Positions 2 through 13,439 of a DNA stretch of 64,000 bases are shown here, piece after piece. A program made the translations under genes and the position numbers. This DNA is from Vibrio palustris (GTDB lineage Bacteria > Pseudomonadota > Gammaproteobacteria > Enterobacterales > Vibrionaceae). The stretch is taken from NCBI RefSeq assembly GCF_024346995.1, contig NZ_AP024887.1, forward strand, positions 434,001 to 498,000, given 5' to 3'. The notes under the pieces were generated by a model, which saw only the letters and a list, made by a program, of their open reading frames with translations, did not search any database and was not told the origin of the DNA. Within the stretch, counting starts at the first letter, position 1. Each line of letters starts with the position of its first letter.

Positions 2-1060
2 CCTGTATTGGCAGCCGCTTTAATCGGCGGTATCTGGCAAATCATTGTTATTTTTGGTGTGCACTGGGGGATTACTCCTGTGGTGTTTGCTAACTACGAA
101 AACTTTGGCTACGACACCTTTCAAGCCTTCCAAGCGATTGCGGTCGTCGCTCAAATGGCCGCAGCTCTTGCGGTGGCGTTTAAATCGCGTAACAAACTAA
201 TGAAAGCCACAGGCTTTTCCGCCGGATTAACGGCCGTTTTCGGTATTACAGAGCCAGCTTTGTACGGGGTGACATTAAGACTGAAAAAGCCCTTTGTGTG
301 TGGTTGTATTGGCGGCGCATTGGGCTCGGTTGTCGCGAGCTTATTTGGCACGTATTACTATGCCTACGCAGGGTTACCCGGTTTATTGACCGTAGTAAAT
401 GCAATTAGCCCAAGTAATCCGGCCTCTTTCATGGGGGAGTTAGCCGGTGTTGGCGTTGCGATTGTCGCCACATTTGCATTGGTTTTTATCGTTGGGTTTG
501 AAGATCCGATTGATGAAGAGTTAGAGGCAGGGAAGGTTTCCGATGATCTTAAAGCATCGGATACACCGGCTCCAATTGTGACGGCGTCTGAGACCAGACA
601 GCTTGCCACCCTAGTGAGCCCGCTAAAAGGACACATTGTGCCTTTATCAACGGTTAAAGATGAAAGCTTTGCACAAAAATTATTAGGGGATGGTGTGGCG
701 ATTATTCCATCAGAGGGTGTGGTTCGCGCCCCGTGTGATGCCGTAATTTCTTCAGTTATCGACACTAAGCACGCCGTAGGTATGACAATGGCCAATGGCG
801 CAGAAGTGTTAATTCATGTTGGGTTAGATACCGTGCAACTCAAAGGAGAGCATTTTGATTGCCTAGTGACGCTAGAGCAGTCAGTGAAAGTGGGAGATCC
901 TTTAATCCACTTTGATCTCGAAAAAATTACCGCCGCGGGTTATGACGTAACCACGCCATGTATTGTCATGAACAGTGATGAGTTTGAATTTAACCTGATT
1001 GACCCAAATCAGGAACATCAAGACATTGAAGTAGGACAGCCAGTCATTCAAATGGCTTAA
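2..1060 (+). CDS. PTS beta-glucoside transporter EIIBCA, C-terminal part (5' end outside window)
   Basis: This is the end of a phosphotransferase permease that imports and phosphorylates aryl- or beta-glucosides. The reading frame is open to the left edge, so the IIB domain and most of IIC are missing. What remains is the end of the membrane IIC domain, including the family motif FGITEPALYG, then a linker and a complete glucose-type IIA domain. The phosphorylated histidine sits in LIHVGLDTV (codon at 815-817). It lies 12 bp before a 6-phospho-beta-glucosidase, which matches BglF-BglB type operons: the permease delivers the 6-phosphosugar that the next enzyme splits. Any antiterminator would be upstream of the window. 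The exact sugar (salicin, arbutin, cellobiose) cannot be read from this part. Confidence 0.93.
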   Translation, partial: PVLAAALIGGIWQIIVIFGVHWGITPVVFANYENFGYDTFQAFQAIAVVAQMAAALAVAFKSRNKLMKATGFSAGLTAVFGITEPALYGVTLRLKKPFVCGCIGGALGSVVASLFGTYYYAYAGLPGLLTVVNAISPSNPASFMGELAGVGVAIVATFALVFIVGFEDPIDEELEAGKVSDDLKASDTPAPIVTASETRQLATLVSPLKGHIVPLSTVKDESFAQKLLGDGVAIIPSEGVVRAPCDAVISSVIDTKHAVGMTMANGAEVLIHVGLDTVQLKGEHFDCLVTLEQSVKVGDPLIHFDLEKITAAGYDVTTPCIVMNSDEFEFNLIDPNQEHQDIEVGQPVIQMA

Positions 1061-1066
1061 GGATAA

Positions 1067-2509
<1,443 letters not shown>

Positions 2510-2540
2510 TTAGACTTAATAACCCAGTAACTCGAAGAAT

Positions 2541-2574
2541 AAAAAGCCTGATGGAGTTTTCCCTCAGGCTTTTT
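2541..2574. terminator. bidirectional terminator between the bgl operon and the SDR gene
   Basis: AAAAAGCCTGA and TCAGGCTTTTT form an 11 bp stem around a 12-base loop, with A and T runs on both sides. It serves the plus-strand bgl operon and the convergent minus-strand SDR gene ending at 2595. Confidence 0.88.
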
Positions 2575-2594
2575 ATTGTCAGTTTGCCAGTGCT

Positions 2595-3347
2595 TTAAAT
2601 ATTCCCCACGCCACCATCAATTAATAGCTCGGCACCGAGCATATAAGCGGATTCATCAGAGGCCATAAAGACTGCCGCTTTGGCAATTTCGACAGGCTGG
2701 CCTAAACGTTTTAAAGGCACTAATTCACCGACTTGCTGAATGAGCGCGGCCTTTTCTGCTTCAGGTAATCCAAATTTATCGAACGCATCGGTGGATGTGG
2801 GGCCTGGGCTTAACGCATTGACGCGAATACCACGATCTTTTAGCTCACCAGAAAGCGTACGAGCAAGCGAGATCAGGGCCGATTTACTGGCGGCATAAAG
2901 ACTGCTTTGCGCTAACCCAATTTGCGCAGACACACTGCCACACAGAATGATCGACGCCGACTCGGATAGGAGTGGCAATAACGCTTGAATTAAGAAAAAA
3001 GGGCCTTTCAAATTGGTTGCGATGATGTGATCGAAATCTGTTTCGCTCCATGATTCCATTGGCTTGTGAGTGACATCTCCAGCATTAATGTACACCACAT
3101 CTAACTTGGGAATGAGGTCGGTGAGTTGCGCCGCCAGCTCGCGTTGTTGCTGATAATCAGCGGCGTTATTTTGTATGACGATGGCAGAGTCGTTAAGTGT
3201 ATTGCGTGCATGGTCTAGGCCTGCGGGATTTCGCCCAGTGACGATGACGTGAGCGCCTTCCTGTTGGAACTGTTTGGCCGTTTCCAAACCAATACCTGCG
3301 GTTCCACCGGTAATTAAGGCGTATTTATTCAATAATCGTTGGCTCAT
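2595..3347 (-). CDS. SDR family NAD(P)-dependent oxidoreductase
   Basis: This is a classical short-chain dehydrogenase/reductase of 250 residues. The nucleotide-binding motif TGGTAGIG is at residues 13-20. INAG replaces the usual NNAG, and the catalytic Ser and Tyr-x3-Lys appear in CGSVSAQ and YAASK. The C-terminal half has the usual SPGPTSTD and LIDGGV motifs. The substrate cannot be told from sequence. It is divergent from an HxlR-type regulator with 77 bp between the genes, a common arrangement in which the regulator senses a reactive electrophile or quinone and controls the oxidoreductase. The role in detoxification is inferred from that context only. Confidence 0.93.
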   Translation of the reverse strand: MSQRLLNKYALITGGTAGIGLETAKQFQQEGAHVIVTGRNPAGLDHARNTLNDSAIVIQNNAADYQQQRELAAQLTDLIPKLDVVYINAGDVTHKPMESWSETDFDHIIATNLKGPFFLIQALLPLLSESASIILCGSVSAQIGLAQSSLYAASKSALISLARTLSGELKDRGIRVNALSPGPTSTDAFDKFGLPEAEKAALIQQVGELVPLKRLGQPVEIAKAAVFMASDESAYMLGAELLIDGGVGNI

Positions 3348-3398
3348 GATTTCTCCTACTTGTTATTTGCTCGACTAATAGCCATTATTGACTCATTC

Positions 3399-3433
3399 AG
3401 TATCAATAAGAAAGTAGGTACCAAATGGATACT
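3399..3433. promoter_or_regulatory. possible HxlR-type operator in the divergent SDR/HxlR promoter region
   Basis: AGTATC (3399-3404) and GATACT (3428-3433) are perfect inverted arms, with the palindrome GGTACC at 3417-3422 between them. The right arm overlaps the first codons of the regulator gene, as expected for an autorepressed gene. This is by inspection only; no binding is shown. Confidence 0.4.
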
Positions 3434-3802
3434 AAGGAAAAAACAACAAATAATCGTCCATCTTCTGCCATTTCTTGTCCCATGGTCGATTTTGTCAATA
3501 TTGTATCTGGGAAGTGGGCGATTCCGATTTTGTATCGTTTGATTGTGACGGATGAGACGATCCGTTTTGGCGCTTTGCAGCGTGCGATTGGGTCAATTAC
3601 CCAAAAAGAGCTCACCAAGCAATTACGCTCGTTTGAAACACAAGGGTTAGTCAGTCGTACGGTATATCCTGAAATGCCGCCACGTGTGGAGTATCAAATT
3701 ACCTCATTGGGCAAAACGCTAAAGCCAACATTGGACTCTCTTGCTCAATGGATGACGGTTCATAAACAAGAATTAATCGAGCATACATCTCAAGGTGAAT
3801 AA
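3425..3802 (+). CDS. HxlR family winged-helix transcriptional regulator
   Basis: This 125-residue MarR-like regulator has the HxlR signature: CPMVDFVNIVSGKWAIPILYRL, where one N-terminal cysteine precedes the SGKW helix, followed by the wing PRVEYQITSLGKTL. Several members sense quinones, aldehydes or hypochlorite through this conserved cysteine. The ATG at 3425 lies just downstream of an inverted repeat and is the first start that keeps the whole HxlR domain. The gene is divergent from the SDR gene, which is the likely target. The sensed compound is unknown. Confidence 0.92.
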   Translation: MDTKEKTTNNRPSSAISCPMVDFVNIVSGKWAIPILYRLIVTDETIRFGALQRAIGSITQKELTKQLRSFETQGLVSRTVYPEMPPRVEYQITSLGKTLKPTLDSLAQWMTVHKQELIEHTSQGE

Positions 3803-3911
3803 AATCCGCATGACCTAGTTATTTCTATCAAGTCAGCGAACGTATATACTTTGTGATTATGGCTTCTTTATCTAAACGTCAAATGGCAATAGATAGTCTC
3901 AGGAATTCAAT

Positions 3912-4397
3912 ATGTTAATGAAAAAGTTGGACGCGCCCAATGATATGCAAATAGGGACGAGGTTTGCGACCAAAAAACATGGCTACGCGGTTGTAGTTGA
4001 ATATTATAATACCTACACCGTCATTATTGCGTTTGAAAATACAGGCAATATACGCTCCACGACCGCCGCAAAATTACGTTGTGGTCAGGTTTTAGATCGT
4101 TCTGTGCCATCACAATCAACGCTGGTTGGGAAAATATTCATATCAGAAAAGTACGGCCCTCTCACAGTGGTACAGGTAGACTCTGACAATATCGTTGTCT
4201 TACATAATAGCGCTGGCGAGGAAATTCGTATGATTCGAGCCTCCGTCGAAAAACTGCGTGAAACGAGCACGCCGGATACGGATCCCCAAGAGGCCCTGCA
4301 AGCCCCGACATCATTAAGTGCATTGACGAAGCGCAGTAAAAAAACGAAAGATGTAAACAGTCTACTTAAAAAAATGCTGGCTGATTACGGAAAATAA
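3912..4397 (+). CDS. Hypothetical protein with two copies of a small beta-rich repeat and a basic tail
   Basis: This is a 161-residue protein of unknown function, well placed behind AGGA and seven bases. Residues about 14-62 and 72-117 are two diverged copies of one module: G-x-x-F-x-(T/S)-(K/E)-x-(H/Y)-G, a hydrophobic run, then a strand pair with N-x-x-V-(I/V). The first copy continues into ENTGNIRSTTAAKLRCGQVLD. Modules of this shape are seen in many phage and homing-endonuclease-associated proteins, where they are thought to bind DNA; that likeness is from memory of the family. The last 35 residues are Lys-rich (TKRSKKTKD, LLKKML). No nuclease motif is present. It stands alone between the HxlR gene and the PTS operon and could be phage-derived. 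Confidence 0.72.
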   Translation: MLMKKLDAPNDMQIGTRFATKKHGYAVVVEYYNTYTVIIAFENTGNIRSTTAAKLRCGQVLDRSVPSQSTLVGKIFISEKYGPLTVVQVDSDNIVVLHNSAGEEIRMIRASVEKLRETSTPDTDPQEALQAPTSLSALTKRSKKTKDVNSLLKKMLADYGK

Positions 4398-4516
4398 TCT
4401 TGTTTCTCACGGTATATCTCACGAATATTATTCGTTACTCAACGACTAGATCCTCATCACATATTTAACTCTTCTGTTATTTCTCTTTTTTTTGTATGGT
4501 TTTTTTAGTCTATTTG

Positions 4517-4532
4517 CATGATATAGGTCACA
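4517..4532. promoter_or_regulatory. possible CRP-cAMP site upstream of the Ula-type PTS operon
   Basis: CATGA-6 bases-TCACA resembles the CRP consensus TGTGA-6-TCACA, with a perfect right half and 3 of 5 matches on the left. It lies 117 bp before the first gene of a sugar PTS operon, a usual place for catabolite control. Confidence 0.4.
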
Positions 4533-4649
4533 AGAGCAATTTGACCTTGAGACAGAGATCTCGTTAAAAAGGTATGCGTTTAGGTATTGTTTTTTCGTCC
4601 AGTAACACAATAAAAATATACCTAAATAACCCTACAGAGAAATAATATT

Positions 4650-4919
4650 ATGAAAAAAATACTAGTAGTATGCGGTAACGGTCTTGGCACGTCACTCATG
4701 ATGGAAATGGCGGTTAAAGAAGTAATTAATAAAATAGGCTTAGAAGCTGAAGTTGATCATGAAGATCTATCTTCTGCTTCTTCAAGTAAAGCGGATATTT
4801 GGGTAGCAGCAAAGGATGTTGCGAATCAATTATCTGAACAAGGCAAAGATAACATTGTTAGCCTAAATAATATCTTTGATAAAGATGCCATTGAAGAACA
4901 ATTAAAAAACTTCATATAA
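4650..4919 (+). CDS. ulaB: PTS sugar transporter subunit IIB, SgaB/UlaB type
   Basis: This 89-residue cytoplasmic phosphocarrier takes phosphate from IIA and passes it to the sugar during transport. The phosphocysteine is Cys8 in the N-terminal loop VVCGNGLGTSLMMEM, typical for the lactose/ascorbate IIB fold. The size fits the family. It is first in a tight three-gene operon (IIB, IIC, IIA). L-ascorbate is the best-known substrate of this family, but members with other pentose or galactitol-like substrates exist and no ula catabolic genes lie beside it. The symbol is by family only. Confidence 0.88.
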   Translation: MKKILVVCGNGLGTSLMMEMAVKEVINKIGLEAEVDHEDLSSASSSKADIWVAAKDVANQLSEQGKDNIVSLNNIFDKDAIEEQLKNFI

Positions 4920-4931
4920 GGATATAACGTT

Positions 4932-6188
4932 ATGGCACAGTTCTTTGAATTTATGCTGGGCTTATTAAAAGAGCCAGCAATTATGGTTGGTATTATTGCA
5001 TTTATTGGTCTTATTGCTCAAAAAGCTGATGTTTCTACAGTTTTAAAAGGCACGATTAAAACCGTAATGGGGTTTCTCATATTAGGGTTTGGTGCTGGCG
5101 CTTTGATCGGTGCATTAAATAATTTTTCAACCGTATTTATTGAAGCATTCGGAGTCCATGGAGTTATTCCGAATAACGAAGCGATTGTCGCATTAGCTCA
5201 AGAAGCGTTTGGTTATGAAATGGCTCTTATTATGTTTTTTGCTTTCATAGTCAATATTTTATTAGCACGCTTTACTCCACTAAAATATATCTTCTTAACG
5301 GGTCACCACACCATGTTTATGTCGATGCTGGTGGCGGTTATCCTTTCTACCGCAAAGATTGAAGGCACATTAATGGTGGCTATTGGTTCCATAACGGTAG
5401 GCTCGTTGATGGTTATCATGCCAGCCCTCGCGCAAAAATACACTGAAAAGGTGATGGGAACGGATCAACTAGCGATGGGTCACTTCTCGACTTTTTCCTA
5501 TCTTATTGCTGGTTTTGTGGGATCGAAGTTTGGTGATACTTCTAAATCGACAGAAGATCTCAACGTACCGAAAAGCCTGATGTTTCTACGTGATACCCCG
5601 GTTGCAGTTGCGGTTACGATGGCATTATTTTTCATGGTGGCGTCTATTTTTGCTGGTGGTGAGTTCGTTGAAACCGTTTCAGATGGTCAAAACTGGGTTG
5701 TTTTTACATTCATGCAATCACTTGTCTTTGCGGGCGGTGTGTATATTGTACTGCAAGGTGTAAAGATGTTGATCGCAGAAATAGTCCCCGCTTTTAAAGG
5801 CATCTCAGATAAACTTGTTCCTGGTGCCAAGCCAGCTTTAGATTGTCCAATGGTTTTTCCGGTGGCTCCTAACGCCGTATTGATTGGCTTTTTATCGTCA
5901 TTTGCTGCCGGCCTTATAGCCATGGCAGTACAAGGTGCGATGGATTGGACCATCATTGTCGCAGGTGTTGTGCCGCATTTCTTTGTTGGTGGTGCATCCG
6001 GTGTGTATGGTAATGCGATGGGCGGCCGACGTGGCGCGGTACTTGGCGCGTTTACTCAAGGTTTGTGTATTTCATTTTTACCCATGATGTTGCTGCCGGT
6101 ATTAGGTGGTTTAGGCCTTAAAGCGACGACATTTGCCGACTTTGACTTTGGTGTTGTTGGTCTTATTCTAGGGTGGATCGTTTCATGA
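4932..6188 (+). CDS. ulaA: PTS ascorbate-type transporter subunit IIC (membrane permease)
   Basis: This 418-residue inner-membrane permease belongs to the SgaT/UlaA family, with about ten hydrophobic segments. It starts with FMLGLLKEPAIMVGIIAFIGL and carries GHHTMFMSML in the middle, a conserved family region. It is somewhat shorter than E. coli UlaA. It begins 12 bp after the IIB gene and overlaps the IIA gene by ATGA. It carries the sugar across the membrane while IIB phosphorylates it. The substrate is likely L-ascorbate or a related compound, inferred from family alone. Confidence 0.9.
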   Translation: MAQFFEFMLGLLKEPAIMVGIIAFIGLIAQKADVSTVLKGTIKTVMGFLILGFGAGALIGALNNFSTVFIEAFGVHGVIPNNEAIVALAQEAFGYEMALIMFFAFIVNILLARFTPLKYIFLTGHHTMFMSMLVAVILSTAKIEGTLMVAIGSITVGSLMVIMPALAQKYTEKVMGTDQLAMGHFSTFSYLIAGFVGSKFGDTSKSTEDLNVPKSLMFLRDTPVAVAVTMALFFMVASIFAGGEFVETVSDGQNWVVFTFMQSLVFAGGVYIVLQGVKMLIAEIVPAFKGISDKLVPGAKPALDCPMVFPVAPNAVLIGFLSSFAAGLIAMAVQGAMDWTIIVAGVVPHFFVGGASGVYGNAMGGRRGAVLGAFTQGLCISFLPMMLLPVLGGLGLKATTFADFDFGVVGLILGWIVS

Positions 6189-6634
6189 GTTTGTGTGATT
6201 TAATCAACGAGAGCAATATCGTTATTTCAACCGCTGAAAACCTTAGTGTTGATGCCGCATTGGACATAACGTGTTCTACATTAATTGAGCAAGGAAAAGT
6301 AGAAACACGTTATTTAGAAGCCATTAAAGCGAAACATAAAGAAATTGGTGCTTTCTATGTATTAGCACCTCGAATCGCCATGCCACACGCACGCCCTGAA
6401 GAAGGGGTGAATGAGGCTAGCTTACAAGTTACGGTATTTAAGCATGGTGTTGATTTGGAATCTGAAGATAATGGGGATGTGTTTTTTTCCGTCACTTTAG
6501 CGGCAAAGGATGCCGATAACCATATTCAAACGATTGTTGCCTTATCTGAGTTATTCCAAAATGAACAAGATATTGAGGCCATTATAGCCTCAGAGAGCAA
6601 AAGAGAAATCCAAGCAATTTTAAATAAATACTAA
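6185..6634 (+). CDS. ulaC: PTS sugar transporter subunit IIA, mannitol/ascorbate type
   Basis: This IIA component accepts phosphate from HPr. The phosphohistidine is His68 in MPHARPEEGV, the classic signature of fructose/mannitol-type IIA domains. The start is placed at ATG 6185, which overlaps the IIC stop as ATGA; an upstream GTG at 6173 in frame is less likely. The protein has 149 residues, normal for UlaC. The operon ends here with no phosphatase, decarboxylase or epimerase, so breakdown of the imported sugar phosphate must be encoded elsewhere. Confidence 0.9.
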   Translation: MSLCDLINESNIVISTAENLSVDAALDITCSTLIEQGKVETRYLEAIKAKHKEIGAFYVLAPRIAMPHARPEEGVNEASLQVTVFKHGVDLESEDNGDVFFSVTLAAKDADNHIQTIVALSELFQNEQDIEAIIASESKREIQAILNKY

Positions 6635-6649
6635 CTAAGCATGAGTTAA

Positions 6650-6679
6650 GAGGAGGCTATCATGATTTGGAGCCTCCTC
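6650..6679 (+). terminator. hairpin after the Ula-type PTS operon
   Basis: GAGGAGGCT and AGCCTCCTC pair over 9 bp with a 12-base loop. The following bases are T-poor, so termination may be weak or Rho-assisted. Confidence 0.5.
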
Positions 6680-7066
6680 ATCTCATAATAACATCCATTG
6701 AATCAGAACGATTTCATTGGGAAACTCTACAACCGTTGTCAACTTTCGTTAACCACGCCATGTACATGTCACGACCTCTTCTTTGCCATCTTGATTCTCT
6801 ATATAGTTGAGTGACTTTTTACCATAAAGAGCGTCTACTTATCTCAGATCTTACCAACACTGCATTGCGATTACCTTTAGAAAAATACAGAGCTATTTTC
6901 ACATCTACCTATTTTCGTTGATTTGGAATTGAATGTTTGCATTGTTGCATATGGCTTCTAAAGTTACCGATATCAGGTAGACAATCTATTTCTACTGACT
7001 TTTCTATCATGAAAGGTGTTTTTTCCTTACCACATGATTATATTTTTTTGAGTACATGAGGTGCCT
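6680..7066. other. AT-rich intergenic stretch without a gene
   Basis: No reading frame with a credible start and ribosome binding site is seen on either strand. The sequence is AT-rich, with short poly-T tracts and no clear repeat. It marks the change from the PTS operon to the accessory genes that follow. Confidence 0.6.
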
Positions 7067-7813
7067 ATGTTTCGCTCCCGGGGTCGTGCGTCTAAAATTT
7101 TTCGCTTTGCTATTTTATCTTCTTTCGCTTTAATTACTTCGAGCTGTGCGAGTAGTAATGGCCCTTTGACTGTTGCAAATGGCGATAAAATGGCACCAAC
7201 AATTGATTATGAATTTGTTGGTATTCCTTTCTTGTATCATGGTTTTGGCTCGAGTGTACCAATTACCCGAGACCTCAGTTTAACGGCCGCTCACGTTGCC
7301 AGAGTAAATTGGGATGATGTGATTGCTTATCATCCACGTTGTGATATTGCGATCATCCGAGCTGATAACCGTTTAGCGAGAAAGCTGCCGGATTTAGGAT
7401 TGATTCATACCAATGAAGATATGACGACCTACGGGCGAGATGGCACAGGTAATTTATTAAAGGGCGAAGGTAAATACCGTTTAGATATTAACTTTTCTAA
7501 CCATAGCTTCTTTGATCATTGCCAAGCAAGTGTTACGGATGCGCCAATTCGAGAAGGAATGAGTGGTGGTGGGGCATTTAATAGCCATGGTGAGTTAGTC
7601 GGAATTATTTCTGCGATGGCAAGTTCTAATACTCGTTTAGCGAATGGAGAAAAACTGCCTTTTGAACGGTTAAGTTTATTTGTTTCATTAAATCAAGTGC
7701 GCGATTGGTTAGATCTAGAAATTGCTAAACACTATATTTTAGAAGGAAAAGAAGGGGCCCCACTTAAATGGAGAATACCGATGACCAACCGATTGGCTAG
7801 TGCTAATAAATAA
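7067..7813 (+). CDS. Trypsin-like serine protease, lipoprotein
   Basis: This is a 248-residue secreted protease. A signal peptide with basic start and hydrophobic core leads to ITSSC, giving lipid-modified Cys27. The chymotrypsin-fold triad is visible as LTAAH (His76), CDIAII (Asp93) and GMSGGGAF (Ser166), followed by HGELVGIISA, the usual strand after the serine. Cys92 and Cys152 could form a disulfide. Start ATG 7067 is chosen over GTG 7061 because GAGG lies at the right distance. Family members act on the cell surface or periplasm and are close to V8/HtrA-like proteases, but no PDZ domain is present. Its target is unknown. It lies directly upstream of the PETase-like gene but has its own terminator. 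Confidence 0.82.
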   Translation: MFRSRGRASKIFRFAILSSFALITSSCASSNGPLTVANGDKMAPTIDYEFVGIPFLYHGFGSSVPITRDLSLTAAHVARVNWDDVIAYHPRCDIAIIRADNRLARKLPDLGLIHTNEDMTTYGRDGTGNLLKGEGKYRLDINFSNHSFFDHCQASVTDAPIREGMSGGGAFNSHGELVGIISAMASSNTRLANGEKLPFERLSLFVSLNQVRDWLDLEIAKHYILEGKEGAPLKWRIPMTNRLASANK

Positions 7814-7833
7814 TTGAAATAAATAAATTATGT

Positions 7834-7862
7834 AACCGCTCAAAATATTGAGCGGTTTTTTT
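7834..7862 (+). terminator. terminator after the trypsin-like lipoprotein gene
   Basis: AACCGCTCAA and TTGAGCGGTT form a 10 bp stem with loop AATA, followed by a T run to 7862. Confidence 0.88.
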
Positions 7863-8117
7863 GTAATATAAAAATCAAGCATTTGTTATATAAAAACAGT
7901 GATAGACTTCGTTAATATATAAGCATTTTCTTATGGATTAATAATCTTGTTATTTTTAGTTAGGTTATTGATTAAAAATAACTAATAGATACTTATCGTT
8001 TCAATCTAATCATTTAAATTATGGACTAATGTCATATTATTTTATAAATAATATATAGCGCTCTATTTCTTGGCTATTATTGTGTTGATTAACAACCTAC
8101 AGGTAAGTGGAGTCGCT
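7863..8117. other. very AT-rich leader/promoter region of the PETase-like gene
   Basis: The 255 bp hold no gene. They are strongly AT-rich with TA-rich tracts that could host several promoters. An in-frame alternative start at 8070 would add 16 residues before the signal peptide, but it has no ribosome binding site. Confidence 0.5.
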
Positions 8118-9017
8118 ATGAAATTTTTAATAAAAGTTAACTTTATATTAAGCATATTCGCAGTATTTATATCCCCTCAAATCTTTGCAGCGACGGTCGC
8201 CTGTTCGGATTGTTCTAATGGGTTTCAACGGGGCACGCTTCCTCGGGTTGATCAATTAGAGTCAAGCCGTGGACCTTACTCAGTGAAGACAAGCAATGTG
8301 TCTGTTTTCGCAAGAGGATTTGGTGGCGGTACTATTCACTATTCGACTGATTCTGGTGGTCAACAGGGGATTATTGCGGTTATTCCTGGTTATGTTTCTT
8401 ATGAGAGTAGCATTAAGTGGTGGGGGCCTCGCTTGGCTTCGTGGGGATTTACTGTCATCACAATAAATACCAATACTATCTATGATCAGCCCAATAGTCG
8501 CGCTAATCAATTAAGTGCCGCCATTGACTATGTGATTGATAAAGGCAATGACCGTTCTTCTCCCATTTATGGCCTAGTCGATCCTGAACGCGTGGGTGTG
8601 ATTGGTTGGTCGATGGGCGGCGGTGGTACCCTTAAGCTTGCCACCGACAGAGACATCGATGCAATAATACCACAAGCTCCTTGGTATTCTGGACTTAATA
8701 GCTTTTCTAGAATCACAACTCCGACTATGGTTATTGCGTGTCAAGCCGATGCTGTGGCACCTGTAGCGCTGCATGCTTCGATATTTTATAACCAAATTCC
8801 TAGATCCACGCCTAAGGCATTTTTTGAGATTGCGGCAGGTAGCCACTTTTGTGGTAACTCAGGATATCCGAACGAAGATATCTTAGGCCGCAATGGTGTT
8901 GCGTGGATGAAACGATTTATTGATAACGATACTCGCTATAACCAATTTTTATGCGGGCAAAATTTTGATCGTAGCCTGAGAGTCAGTGATTATAAAGATA
9001 CGTGTAATACCTATTAA
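8118..9017 (+). CDS. Secreted PETase-like polyester hydrolase (cutinase / dienelactone hydrolase superfamily)
   Basis: This 299-residue alpha/beta-hydrolase starts with a signal peptide cleaved near IFA-ATVACS, so it is exported. Many stretches match Ideonella PETase almost word for word: SIKWWGPRLAS, GWSMGGGG, PQAPW and GVAWMKRF-DNDTRY. The triad is Ser165, Asp211 and His243; Tyr92 and Met166 form the oxyanion hole, and Trp164 and Trp189 line the cleft. Two cysteine pairs match the two PETase disulfides: Cys208-Cys245 and Cys279-Cys296. The extended loop after the catalytic histidine has PETase length. At the positions where Ideonella PETase has Ser214, Ile218 and Ser238, this enzyme has His219, Phe223 and Phe244, the state of ordinary cutinases and slower PET hydrolases. 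An extra CSDC at 29-32 is present. Start ATG 8118 is set by AGTGGAG and the signal peptide. The natural substrate is probably a natural polyester or lipid ester; PET activity is a prediction. Confidence 0.9.
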   Translation: MKFLIKVNFILSIFAVFISPQIFAATVACSDCSNGFQRGTLPRVDQLESSRGPYSVKTSNVSVFARGFGGGTIHYSTDSGGQQGIIAVIPGYVSYESSIKWWGPRLASWGFTVITINTNTIYDQPNSRANQLSAAIDYVIDKGNDRSSPIYGLVDPERVGVIGWSMGGGGTLKLATDRDIDAIIPQAPWYSGLNSFSRITTPTMVIACQADAVAPVALHASIFYNQIPRSTPKAFFEIAAGSHFCGNSGYPNEDILGRNGVAWMKRFIDNDTRYNQFLCGQNFDRSLRVSDYKDTCNTY

Positions 9018-9053
9018 TGACCTGATAGTGCGCATCACGAATACATCATCAAT

Positions 9054-9076
9054 CCCCAGAGTGAGTCACTCTGGGG
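9054..9076 (+). terminator. perfect inverted repeat after the PETase-like gene
   Basis: CCCCAGAGTGA and TCACTCTGGGG are perfectly inverted around one G, leaving roughly a 9-10 bp stem. The tail (ATTTGCT) is poor in T, so it may be a weak terminator or a protein-binding palindrome. Confidence 0.55.
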
Positions 9077-9152
9077 ATTTGCTATCTGCCTACCGGTAGA
9101 CGAGAGAAGATGGAATCATCCAGTTAGCTCGCTTTACTAGTTCATCGATGGT

Positions 9153-9563
9153 GTGAAGAAAGACTGGAACCAGATGTTGTCGCTTCGTAATTGGAATTGG
9201 ATCTTTGAACGTTGGGATATTATGGGTGCCCTGTTAGTGGTTTTATTGACGCCAGATTGTAAGAATTGTGAGTGTTTGTTTGCCTGTAATGGCGGCTGCC
9301 CAAAACATCGATTTAATACATCACCCTCCGGGTTTCCTCAACACAATTATTTTTGCCAAGGGTATAAGCATTATTTTCGTCATGTTGCGGACACGATGGG
9401 ACAAATTAGAGAGTTGATTTTTAACCGCCATCCGATAAACGATATCATGATTGTAAAAAAAATTCAGGATTCCCCAATAGGGCGTATGCCAGAAAAAGTC
9501 GAGCGCGTAATAGCCCTTGCCCATGTGGTAGCGGAAAAATATAAAAAGTGTTGTATGCATTGA
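9153..9563 (+). pseudogene. 3' remnant of an anaerobic sulfatase-maturating enzyme (radical SAM/SPASM)
   Basis: The open frame encodes only the last part of an AslB/anSME-type enzyme. The SPASM iron-sulfur signature is clear: TPDCKNCECLFACNGGCPKHRF, then NYFCQGYKHYFRH and a typical C-terminal helix. The radical-SAM core with CxxxCxxC, normally about 250 residues upstream, is absent: the DNA before it belongs to the PETase-like gene and its terminator. The first 40 residues of the frame look scrambled rather than family-like. No ribosome binding site precedes the frame. No sulfatase gene is nearby. I read this as a 5'-deleted, decaying gene; residue likeness to the family begins near 9246. Confidence 0.8.
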
Positions 9564-9713
9564 TTGAATTGTTTTGGATTACATTATTCTCGGATCAGTC
9601 GAATAGTGGCAAAAAGCAAGATTGATCCCATACTCACTTATTCATAAACTTTTTACAATGGAGTATCCATATCGGATAATGTTACTCAGTATGTTTTTGA
9701 GGAGAATTAAGCG

Positions 9714-10574
9714 ATGATCAAACTATATAAATACATGAGTGAAAAGGCAGCTTTATCTTTTATTAAGCAACCACTACTCCGAATATCACCTAGTCATCAA
9801 CTCAATGATCCATTTGAATTTCTACCTTCGGCGTCTAGCCAGATGTCTCTAAAGAAACGGTTTAAACATAACATTAAAGAGTTTATGGACTTACATGGAG
9901 TTCTTTGTTTATCTGAGATACCAGATAATCTTTTAATGTGGAGCCATTACGCAGACAACCATAAAGGTGCTGTAGTTGAGTTCTTTGTTGACGAAAATGA
10001 TCCGTTTAACTTGTTTTACATTAATTACGTGGCGAAATCGTCTGATGCGAAGTTCGACAAGGTAAGCTACAAGAAAGATCGAGCCTATTTGGGTTGTTCA
10101 TTAACCGACGACCTCCAAAAAATACGAGAACATTATACTTTCACTAAATCAGAGGATTGGGACTATGAAAAAGAACATCGATTTATCTTTCCTTTTACTT
10201 CAATAAGTCATGAATTAAATACAGGAGAAGAGATGGCTCGTTTTGATAGTGGATTGGTTAACGACAGATTGACTCGAAAGTGGCTTAATGCTGATAGATC
10301 ATTCTTTGTTCAAATCGACCCATCAAAAATAGGTCGTATTATACTTGGTTTGAACGCTAACATGGACAAATACCTAGATGAAATGAAGAAAAGGCAACCT
10401 AGTGACTTTCACCGTGAGTTTTGGAACTTTGATGGAAATTTGATGAATGTAGAGAGTGCAGAGTTACATCCAGACAGATTTGAATTGATATTCAATAGAT
10501 TAGAGAAAAACCTATACGGTTGCACCAACATTGCCTCCTTCTCCAAAACCTTATCAAGCCAACTAAAACCCTAG
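9714..10574 (+). CDS. DUF2971 family protein
   Basis: This 286-residue protein has the DUF2971 hallmarks: LYKYMSEKAALSFI at the start, LNDPFEF at 30-36, LMWSHYADNHKGAVVEF at 74-90 and WDYEKEHRF in the middle. It has no signal peptide or membrane segment, so it is cytoplasmic. The function of the family is not established. Its members are typical cargo of genomic islands and are patchily distributed. The ribosome binding site GAGGAG, 11-16 bases before ATG 9714, supports the start. Codon use is AT-rich compared with the neighbouring core genes. The last 25 residues after NLYG may be a replaced tail, because the family-like part ends before them and the unexplained region begins right after the stop. 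Confidence 0.85.
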   Translation: MIKLYKYMSEKAALSFIKQPLLRISPSHQLNDPFEFLPSASSQMSLKKRFKHNIKEFMDLHGVLCLSEIPDNLLMWSHYADNHKGAVVEFFVDENDPFNLFYINYVAKSSDAKFDKVSYKKDRAYLGCSLTDDLQKIREHYTFTKSEDWDYEKEHRFIFPFTSISHELNTGEEMARFDSGLVNDRLTRKWLNADRSFFVQIDPSKIGRIILGLNANMDKYLDEMKKRQPSDFHREFWNFDGNLMNVESAELHPDRFELIFNRLEKNLYGCTNIASFSKTLSSQLKP

Positions 10575-11296
10575 CTCGGTGGGTCCGTCACACTAGACTG
10601 GCCCTATAATCTCGCTCTAAGGATTATCCTGCCTAACTTCTTGCCTGATGTAGTTTCTGTAATTATTGTAAGGGCGTCTTTGGTCCGGTCTTCAGCTGTG
10701 ATTTTCGCTAGATAATACCTAGCTGGACACGAATCCTAATGTAAGTTTCTTATTTAGGTTTTCCGTCTAGTTTGCCGTCGTCGGGAGCTCCATACTATTC
10801 GACTAACTCAACTCGACACCTTGACTCATACCAGAGCCATGTTGTAATTCAGTGTGCTGTCTGTTTTCCAGTTTAAGTATGGAATACCAGTCTGGTGATT
10901 AGCTGCTGACTCTGATCTAAATCGTTTACTAGATAACAGACCGATTACCGCTGAGATTAATCGCTCATCCTTGAATGCTGTTTTCCTGACTGACTAGTTC
11001 TAAGAGCTTTAGGATCATAGGTGTCCTTCCCATCATGGAACTCGCTTTCCATCCCATATCTATATGAATAATTTCAGCTAATGGACAGGATGTTGGTTAT
11101 ATTTTTATTGGTTCCAGCGCGAAGTTTTTCTGGGGATCAGTTCTGGTGTTAAGTGGTATGTATCTGCTCTGATTCGTGCTGTACAGACGAGAGAAGGTTC
11201 TGATGTTGGATATCTGTCTGGACTAGGAACGGTGTCTCTGTGGTGACTACGTGGCGTGTTTCGGCTGACCGAATATAGACTGGACCAGAAAAAACA
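10575..11296. other. gene-free block of about 720 bp between the DUF2971 gene and tRNA-Ile
   Basis: No credible reading frame occurs on either strand, yet base composition looks like coding DNA rather than an AT-rich spacer. CTAG, usually rare in enteric-type genomes, occurs at least seven times here. TAGACTGG is found near both ends (10594-10601 and 11276-11283). I recognise no RNA family, insertion sequence or gene remnant. Confidence 0.6.
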
Positions 11297-11324
11297 AAGG
11301 CCCGTAGATTTTTCTACGGGCCTT
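11297..11324 (-). terminator. terminator of the tRNA-Ile gene
   Basis: A perfect 12 bp stem AAGGCCCGTAGA / TCTACGGGCCTT with a 4-base loop is followed on the minus strand by a broken T run. It lies 9 bases beyond the tRNA 3' end. Confidence 0.88.
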
Positions 11325-11332
11325 CTAGAATT

Positions 11333-11408
11333 TGGTGGCCCCTCGCAGATTTGAACTGCGGACCAATCGATTATGAGTCGACTGCTCTAACCACTGAGCT
11401 AAGGGGCC
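11333..11408 (-). tRNA. tRNA-Ile(CAU), lysidine type (Ile2)
   Basis: The minus strand gives a full cloverleaf of 76 bases with encoded CCA. The acceptor stem is GGCCCCT/AGGGGCC, the D-arm TAGCTCAGTGG, the anticodon loop CTCATAA with anticodon CAU, and the T-arm GTTCAAAT. The acceptor stem and body match the minor isoleucine tRNA (E. coli ileX type), not initiator or elongator methionine tRNA, so the C is expected to be changed to lysidine to read AUA. The gene-free block lies on its 3' side. Confidence 0.9.
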
Positions 11409-11505
11409 AAACTGGTGAATGATTATAGGTGAAGCGAGGGGGCGTGTCTAGATGCAGGGTAGGGTATTTGCGCTTAGTTTTTATTCACTTAGAACCCCAG
11501 ATAGC

Positions 11506-11534
11506 AAAAAGGTGAGCTTTCGCTCACCTTTTTT
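11506..11534 (-). terminator. terminator of the rpsU-dnaG-rpoD operon
   Basis: AAAAAGGTGAGC / GCTCACCTTTTT with loop TTTC forms a 12 bp stem with A and T runs, 28 bases beyond the rpoD stop codon. Confidence 0.88.
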
Positions 11535-11561
11535 ACGTATTGCTTAAAAACACAACAGTGT

Positions 11562-13439
11562 TTATTCGTCGAGGAAGCTTCTCAGAGTTTCTGAGCGGCT
11601 TGGGTGACGAAGCTTACGTAGAGCTTTCGCTTCAATCTGACGGATACGCTCACGCGTTACGTCGAACTGTTTACCCACTTCTTCTAACGTGTGGTCTGTG
11701 TTCATGTCGATACCAAAACGCATACGCAATACTTTCGCTTCACGTGGCGTTAGGCCAGACAATACATCGCGCGTTGCGCCACGTAAGCTGGTTGATGTCG
11801 CAGAATCCAGTGGCAGTTCAAGCGTGGTATCTTCAATGAAATCGCCTAGGTGAGAATCTTCATCATCACCAATTGGAGTTTCCATTGAGATTGGCTCTTT
11901 CGCGATTTTCAGCACTTTACGGATTTTGTCTTCCGGCATTTGCATGCGTTCAGCCAATTCTTCCGGTAGTGGTTCACGGCCCATTTCTTGTAGCATTTGA
12001 CGAGAGATACGATTCAACTTGTTGATCGTTTCAATCATGTGCACGGGAATACGGATGGTACGTGCTTGGTCTGCGATAGAACGAGTAATCGCCTGACGAA
12101 TCCACCATGTTGCGTAGGTTGAGAATTTGTAACCACGACGGTATTCAAATTTATCAACTGCTTTCATTAGACCGATGTTACCTTCTTGGATAAGATCCAA
12201 GAATTGTAGGCCACGGTTGGTGTATTTCTTCGCGATAGAAATAACCAGACGTAAGTTGGCTTCAACCATCTCTTTCTTCGCACGGCGTGCTTTCGCTTCA
12301 CCGATAGACATACGACGGCTGATATCTTTAATACGTGTTACGCTTAACGACGTTTCATTCTCGATCATGTCGAGTTTTTGAATCGCACGACGAATGTCAT
12401 CTTCGCGTGAGCGAATTTTATCAACATACGGCTTGTTTGATGCAAGAACTTCGTCTAACCAAGCTTCGCTTGATTCGTTGCCGGTAAATAGGGCAATAAA
12501 CGATTTCTTCGGCATTTTTGCGTATTCAACAACGTGTTTCATAATGAGACGTTCTTGAGTACGGACGCGTTCCATTGAGTTACGCAGTGTGTTCACTAGG
12601 TGATCAAACTGTTTAGGGGTCAGACGGAACTCGCGGAAAACTTCTTGAACCAAGTCAGTTGCTGAGCGGAAGGCTTTACTTTCGTCGCCGTGCTCATTCA
12701 TCGCAAGTTGTAGGTTCTGATATTGGTTGCGTAGACTTGTGAACTTCTCTAGCGCTAACTCTGGATCGATACCTACGTCTTCTTCTTCCTCGTCGTCAGT
12801 ATCGGTCTTGTTTTCGCTGTTCTCGTCTTCGTCTTCGTCATCAGAGTCTTTCTTGCTGGCACCTAAGTCGGTTTCAGCCAGTTCTGAACCGATGTGTGTC
12901 GCGGTAGGTCCTTGAGAACCATCATCGTCAGGGTCAACAAAGCCTGAGATCAAATCAGTTAAGCGTAGCTCTTCTGCTTGAACTTTATCAAACTGTTCGA
13001 GAATGTATGGAATAGTACCTGGGTACTCAGCAACGGCGCTTTGTACTTGGTTAATGCCATCTTCAATACGCTTCGCAATATCAATCTCACCTTCACGAGT
13101 CAACAGTTCAACTGTGCCCATTTCACGCATGTACATGCGAACAGGATCGGTAGTGCGACCGATTTCACTTTCTACACTTGAAAGTGCGGCGGCTGCAGCT
13201 TCTGCAGCGTCTTCATCGGTAATGTTATTGTCATCGTTTAGCGCCAGATCATCGGCATCGGGTGCGGTTTCTACAACCTTAATACCCATGTCGTTAATCA
13301 TTTGAATAATATCTTCTACTTGCTCTGAATCTACGATTTCAGCAGGTAAGTGGTCATTGACTTCGGCGTAGGTCAGATAGCCTTGCTCTTTGCCTTTCAG
13401 GACAAGTAGTTTCAGCTGTGACTGCGGATTTTGATCCAT
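11562..13439 (-). CDS. rpoD: RNA polymerase sigma factor RpoD (sigma 70)
   Basis: This is the primary sigma factor that directs RNA polymerase to housekeeping promoters. The 625 residues compare with 613 in E. coli. Visible parts are region 1.1 at the start ([20 protein letters not shown]), a highly acidic non-conserved insert ([22 protein letters not shown]), region 2 with [14 protein letters not shown], and region 4 with the helix-turn-helix [20 protein letters not shown]. The start is ATG 13439; a longer in-frame start at 13490 adds 17 residues foreign to the family. It is the last gene of the macromolecular synthesis operon, 101 bp after dnaG. Confidence 0.98.

Follow-up and report, generated by a model that had tools for sequence, protein, structure and literature searches.

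A gene orthologous by sequence to Vibrio gazogenes pet6 in a second Vibrio lineage

The pet6-type gene of the window and its features

The window is a stretch of 64,000 nucleotides from Vibrio palustris. It carries a gene for a PET hydrolase-like serine hydrolase with the following features, positions being those of the window.

8118..9017, + strand: pet6-type gene, 299 amino acids plus stop (open frame; PF12740, 336.1 bits; PDB entry 7z6b, 546.9 bits; tree)
8109..8112, + strand: GGAG, ribosome-binding-like, 5 nucleotides 5' of the ATG
8118..8189, + strand: putative signal peptide, residues 1-24, probable cleavage after A24 (by eye and by comparison with PET6)
8202..8213, + strand: C29-x-x-C32, the third pair of cysteines, whose counterpart in PET6 is disulfide DS3 (residue alignment; PMC9679969)
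8610..8612, + strand: catalytic Ser165 in G-W-S-M-G (alignment)
8739..8852, + strand: stretch bounded by C208 and C245, the cysteines of the type II disulfide near the active site (DS2 in PET6; alignment)
8748..8750, + strand: catalytic Asp211 (alignment)
8844..8846, + strand: catalytic His243, followed by Phe244, a type IIa mark (alignment)
8859..8876, + strand: extended loop SGYPNE, residues 248-253 (alignment); Tyr250 corresponds to Tyr248 of PET6, described as groove-blocking in PMC9679969
8952..9005, + strand: stretch bounded by C279 and C296, the cysteines of the C-terminal disulfide (DS1 in PET6; alignment)
7834..7857, + strand: terminator-like hairpin with a T tract, separating pet6 from the protease gene upstream (terminator scan)
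9051..9079, + strand: perfect 14-base inverted repeat, possible transcript end

An earlier reading of this DNA from its letters alone (the sequence-only reading) had described a secreted, type II PETase-like polyester hydrolase with a signal peptide, a Ser165-Asp211-His243 triad, and Trp164 and Trp189 in the cleft. We found a hydrophobic, signal-peptide-like start over residues 1-24, as judged by eye, and each of the named residues at its number, together with His219, Phe223, and Phe244. Both cysteine pairs that it proposed are present, but the protein has six cysteines (29, 32, 208, 245, 279, and 296) and hence a third pair, C29/C32, which had been overlooked. Upstream of the start codon, TGGAGT precedes the ATG here and in all four other Vibrio copies of pet6.

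The gene is flanked by the hairpin on one side and the inverted repeat on the other, and pet6 therefore seems to stand alone as a transcript unit. The terminator scan gave four such sites in the region, where chance alone would give 3.5, so that the hairpin carries little weight on its own; the inverted repeat, which starts 34 bases past the stop codon, is absent from the list that the scan produced.

Family membership and placement among PET hydrolases

At an E-value of 0.001, the Pfam search of the window protein reported the PETase family PF12740 alone (E 1.9e-100, profile positions 3-262 of 263, gathering cut-off 28 bits) and no dienelactone hydrolase (DLH) family. The NCBIfam equivalog for BHET hydrolase, NF051441, matched at 279.4 bits, below its cut-off of 520. 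The best sequence match in the PDB is 7z6b, PET6 of V. gazogenes, and the next scores 338.8 bits. Over 275 aligned residues the window protein is 83.3% identical to 7z6b, compared with 47.7% over 281 residues for the Ideonella sakaiensis PETase. An AlphaFold2 model built from 37 sequences (the window protein and 36 of the 80 loci described below) reached a pLDDT of 90.0 and a pTM of 0.91, and 7z6b was also the top match of the predicted fold (TM 0.95, E 3.3e-51).

We confirmed 115 relatives in the genome collection and kept 80, of which 75 bear a gammaproteobacterial name, the rest being four Planotetraspora and one 'Proteobacteria bacterium'; these are relatives by sequence, and not all of them are marine. 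The sequence-only reading had considered marine gammaproteobacterial members of the type II group rare. This did not hold, given these 115 relatives, a crystallised Vibrio member, and the Vibrio homologues listed in PMC9679969. Since PET6, its Vibrio homologues, its low activity on PET, and its salt dependence are already published, the argument from rarity fails.

The residue alignment comprised 94 rows (the window protein, four further Vibrio copies, eight PDB chains, one plasmid copy, and the 80 loci), and the maximum likelihood tree comprised 93, a second V. ruber row having been dropped. The six Vibrio rows of the tree form a single clade with support of 100/100 and all other genera outside it, and within this clade the five other Vibrio rows group against the window copy (99/98). 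A long-branch warning applies to the tree, in which the Ideonella PETase joined the type I rows; the Vibrio clade is untouched by it. The sequence-only reading had proposed such a phylogeny as a check, and the window protein falls with PET6 and not with the Ideonella PETase. The window protein equals 7z6b at 21 of 22 key positions, the sole difference being at 248. Judged by sequence and tree, the window gene is an orthologue of V. gazogenes PET6, an identity that the sequence-only reading missed.

Type II PET hydrolases are defined by an additional disulfide near the active site and an extended loop; type I enzymes have His before the catalytic Ser, where Trp is implied for type II. Within type II, type IIa has Phe or Tyr at the position of Ideonella Ser238, while type IIb has Ser there together with a conserved subsite II (PMC5785972). 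Type III enzymes also have His before the catalytic Ser, with disulfides far from the active site (PMC13396203). In the window protein, C208/C245 align with the cysteine pair of Ideonella PETase and PET6 (the bond itself being predicted), the extended loop follows the catalytic His where five type I-like rows are gapped, and Trp164 precedes the catalytic Ser where those five rows have His. Phe244 stands at the Ser238 position, as in type IIa; the type IIb residues are replaced by Phe244, His219, and Phe223, and Trp164 and C208/C245 differ from the type III pattern. Our alignment also bears out that the loop after the catalytic His is as long as in Ideonella PETase and that His219, Phe223, and Phe244 are the equivalents of its Ser, Ile, and Ser. 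The earlier assignment to type II is thus backed by orthology with PET6 and is more exactly type IIa.

The CxxC pair at the N-terminus, described as uncommon for PET6, was found in 34 of the 94 alignment rows, with three rows starting too late to tell. Relatives from Ketobacter, Aestuariicella, Pseudomonas, Stutzerimonas, some Marinobacter, and others also have it, so that it is a wider feature and not unique to Vibrio. Separately, Ideonella PETase agrees at 282 of 290 positions with a protein encoded on a plasmid of 201 kb in Piscinibacter gummiphilus SBD 7-3 (NZ_CP136337.1, 162405-163277).

Neighbourhood and distribution in Vibrio

Directly upstream of pet6 lies a trypsin-like protease gene (PF13365, 7061-7813), a second copy of which, 70% identical, is located at G000:C1:834662-835360 (G000 being the window genome). 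The region 4932-6634 holds a PTS IIA gene and an ascorbate-type PTS IIC gene that scores above the cut-off of NF006919, in a genome that gave no match to UlaG, the ascorbate lactonase. We considered a link between pet6 and these PTS genes and rejected it, as we found no evidence for it, the hairpin lies between them, and a UlaG match is absent. Just after pet6, a 136-residue frame (9153-9563) resembles anaerobic sulfatase maturases solely at their C-terminal SPASM end (NF010308, positions 334-404 of 412), and by sequence the frame looks like what is left of a larger gene. The approximately 750 bases between the DUF2971 gene and tRNA-Met (10575-11330) contain no stop-to-stop frame above 55 residues except one, a 93-residue minus-strand frame running into the tRNA gene.

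The names rpoD, dnaG, yqeY, tsaD, plsY, and folK are used here for genes that we take to be these. All 11 stretches compared from relatives contain the rpoD-dnaG block, and DNA similarity to the relatives starts no more than roughly twelve bases from the end of tRNA-Met. Since similarity starts only there, the tRNA end marks a synteny break. The window genes to the left of tRNA-Met (8-10574, pet6 included) were found in none of the 11 stretches, 10 of which extend approximately 10 kb or more past tRNA-Met, while that of G133 extends only approximately 460 bases and is too short to judge. A search of 6600-11700 for boundary repeats of an island gave nothing convincing, only short families of two copies. 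In G060 and G061, a stretch of 111 bases close to pet6 was considered as a mobile repeat and rejected, as it occurs in two of six genomes with one copy in each.

We found full-length pet6 in only 5 of 227 Vibrio genomes (the window genome, G060, G061, G133, and G201); G130 gave a 29% partial match only. None of the five genomes nearest to the window genome by DnaG (G103, G217, G055, G051, and G122, at 84-85%) carries a full-length copy, and the DnaG proteins of the four other carriers are 71-72% identical to that of the window genome. In the 20-kb stretch around each of those four copies, pet6 is the only gene with a match among the window genes, and similarity to the window at the DNA level ends with the coding region or right at its border. 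Among themselves, the surroundings of the four are partly shared and partly different.

At four-fold sites, the window copy is 26-32% identical to the four other copies, and six neighbouring core genes from the same genomes are 21-46% identical. The proteins are 79.5-82.1% identical, within the core-gene range of 60-87%, and the mature parts 83-86%. Saturated silent sites together with this identity of the mature protein point to long purifying selection. Since four-fold-site identity is no higher than that of core genes, our data argue strongly against recent exchange between the window and gazogenes lineages. What remains is that the gene was transferred long ago, was gained separately from related donors, or was lost in many lines.

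Horizontal transfer of PET6 within the genus has been proposed (PMC9679969), and the patchy distribution and unlike neighbourhoods agree with that proposal. Vertical descent from a common Vibrio ancestor with loss in nearly all species would account for four-fold-site and protein identities that do not exceed those of core genes, and for a single Vibrio clade. Against it stand the small number of carriers, the lack of full-length copies in the nearest genomes, and neighbourhoods that share no other gene and no DNA similarity beyond the coding region; we regard descent of this kind as possible but doubtful. Carriage by a phage or a plasmid was considered and rejected: 16 stretches of viral contigs were pattern-matched and none was confirmed, by a method that reaches close relatives only, and five plasmid records held relatives, all below 60% identity and none from Vibrio.

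UlaG was searched with the NF008688 profile. There was no match in the window genome, in a search in which 6 of 14 controls responded, one of them over the cut-off; the other six of the seven genomes searched, including all four other pet6 carriers, had UlaG over the cut-off. UlaG is therefore not a constant companion of pet6. The tannase family PF07519, to which MHETase belongs, gave no match in the window genome, but all 14 search controls were silent as well. PF00848, a ring-hydroxylating oxygenase family that is not specific to terephthalate (TPA), gave one match in each of the three Vibrio genomes searched.

On a more speculative note, pet6 might be a wandering one-gene module, that is, a secreted polyesterase kept by purifying selection for a marine natural polyester and placed at unrelated sites in two distant Vibrio lineages; we hold this to be improbable. 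If it were true, a genome with pet6 but without a UlaG match would be a natural background for finding the substrate.

Proposed function and comparison with known systems

By analogy with PET6, we are highly confident that the window gene is a PET6 orthologue, apparently a one-gene unit, whose product would be exported, would cut polyesters and other esters, and would be slow on PET. The protein would leave the cell via its signal peptide and adopt an alpha/beta hydrolase fold held by three disulfides. Esters would be cleaved by the Ser165-His243-Asp211 triad in a shallow surface groove, predicted from homology with the Ideonella PETase subsites to be lined by Tyr92, Trp164, Met166, Trp189, and Phe244. 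The expected substrates, taken from PET6, are short-chain esters, aliphatic polyesters, and BHET, with amorphous PET probably hydrolysed slowly and better at high salt.

PET6 has been crystallised and has three disulfides including DS3, its optimum is 1-1.5 M NaCl and 45-50 °C, and its PET activity is far below that of Ideonella PETase at 50 mM NaCl but slightly above it at 1 M NaCl and 50 °C, where the Ideonella values are extrapolated (PMC9679969). It is best on C2-C4 p-nitrophenyl esters and comes from a set active on polycaprolactone (PMC5881046). In V. gazogenes, pet6 has low and broad expression and is induced by BHET, which both PET6 and UlaG hydrolyse (PMC12211005). The same study reports that BHET, TPA, and ethylene glycol do not support growth of V. 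gazogenes. Since V. gazogenes does not grow on these compounds and the window genome has no UlaG match, the physiological substrate is most likely a natural ester and not PET, and PET is unlikely to serve as food for the window host. Modest activity on PET and another natural ester polymer as substrate, as the sequence-only reading had anticipated, are likewise favoured here, through orthology with PET6 rather than through an assay. Its observation was correct, and its interpretation is in part supported.

We also weighed whether the protein is a general secreted esterase or lipase, or a DLH-like enzyme, with no real polyester activity. PET6, the nearest characterised orthologue, is termed a promiscuous esterase (PMC12211005) with a preference for short esters, and some relatives in the PDB are labelled 'DLH domain-containing protein'. 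However, Pfam returned PETase alone, the active site equals that of PET6, a PET hydrolyser, and the genome's sole other match, a protein of 447 residues encoded on C2, is significant over one stretch of approximately 70 residues. We therefore rejected the DLH reading and consider an enzyme of this general kind very unlikely. A fast, Ideonella-like type IIb PETase adapted to PET as food can be dismissed with near certainty: the second disulfide cysteines, the extended loop, and Trp164 are shared type II features, but Phe244 in place of Ser238 by itself refutes the type, His219/Phe223 replace Ser214/Ile218, the tree groups the protein with PET6, and the genome lacks a UlaG match.

The PET6-like polyesterase favoured here is an ordinary find, since PET6 of V. 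gazogenes is already crystallised and tested and the window gene is its close sibling. Homologues more than 79% identical to PET6 are listed for V. gazogenes, V. spartinae, V. ruber, V. zhugei, and V. palustris in PMC9679969, the one paper we found that joins V. palustris and PETase; the window gene may well be among the homologues given there for V. zhugei or V. palustris. New here are the presence in 5 of 227 genomes, the unlike neighbourhood, the saturated silent-site divergence, and the missing UlaG match. With respect to PET6, the silent-site divergence sharpens the case against recent exchange and UlaG is seen not to be a constant companion, and neither changes the kind of enzyme.

Among known systems, Ideonella PETase (6eqe, type IIb) has the fold, triad, and loop length of the window protein, and of its three cysteine pairs it has two. 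The Ideonella enzyme differs in having Ser214, Ile218, and Ser238 where the window protein has His, Phe, and Phe, and it lacks the N-terminal cysteine pair. The type IIa-like enzymes of Pseudomonadota, PE-H (6sbn), Ple628 (7vmd), PsCut (8ais), MG8 (9vzr), and PET2/LipIAF5-2 (7ec8), are 49-57% identical to the window protein and have the same fold family, triad, second cysteine pair, Trp164, His219/Phe223, and an aromatic residue at 244. The C29/C32 pair is absent from 6sbn, 8ais, and 9vzr, and the compared stretch of 7ec8 and 7vmd starts too late to tell. The V. ruber homologue is 79.5% identical to the window protein, which lies outside the gazogenes/ruber lineage.

PET6 itself (7z6b) has the same triad, three cysteine pairs, chloride-site residues, and clade, besides the shared key positions. 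The V. gazogenes-like copy in G060, 99.3% identical to 7z6b, has the same seven chloride-site residues as the window protein and differs from it at 42 of 271 compared mature residues. The window loop is SGYPNE where PET6 has TGYPSE, and Val63 replaces Arg61 of PET6 at sodium site 1, where contacts are made via backbone carbonyls; Phe65 as given in PMC9679969 falls on Gly in the numbering used here. The residues of sodium site 2 (D284, S286, and V289) are equal in both. Given these 42 differences, one of which is the replacement of Arg61 by Val63, the salt response may differ from that of PET6. The window copy differs further from the other Vibrio copies in its neighbourhood and in a host genome with no UlaG match, and it adds the sequence of a second Vibrio lineage to a characterised group of marine polyesterases.
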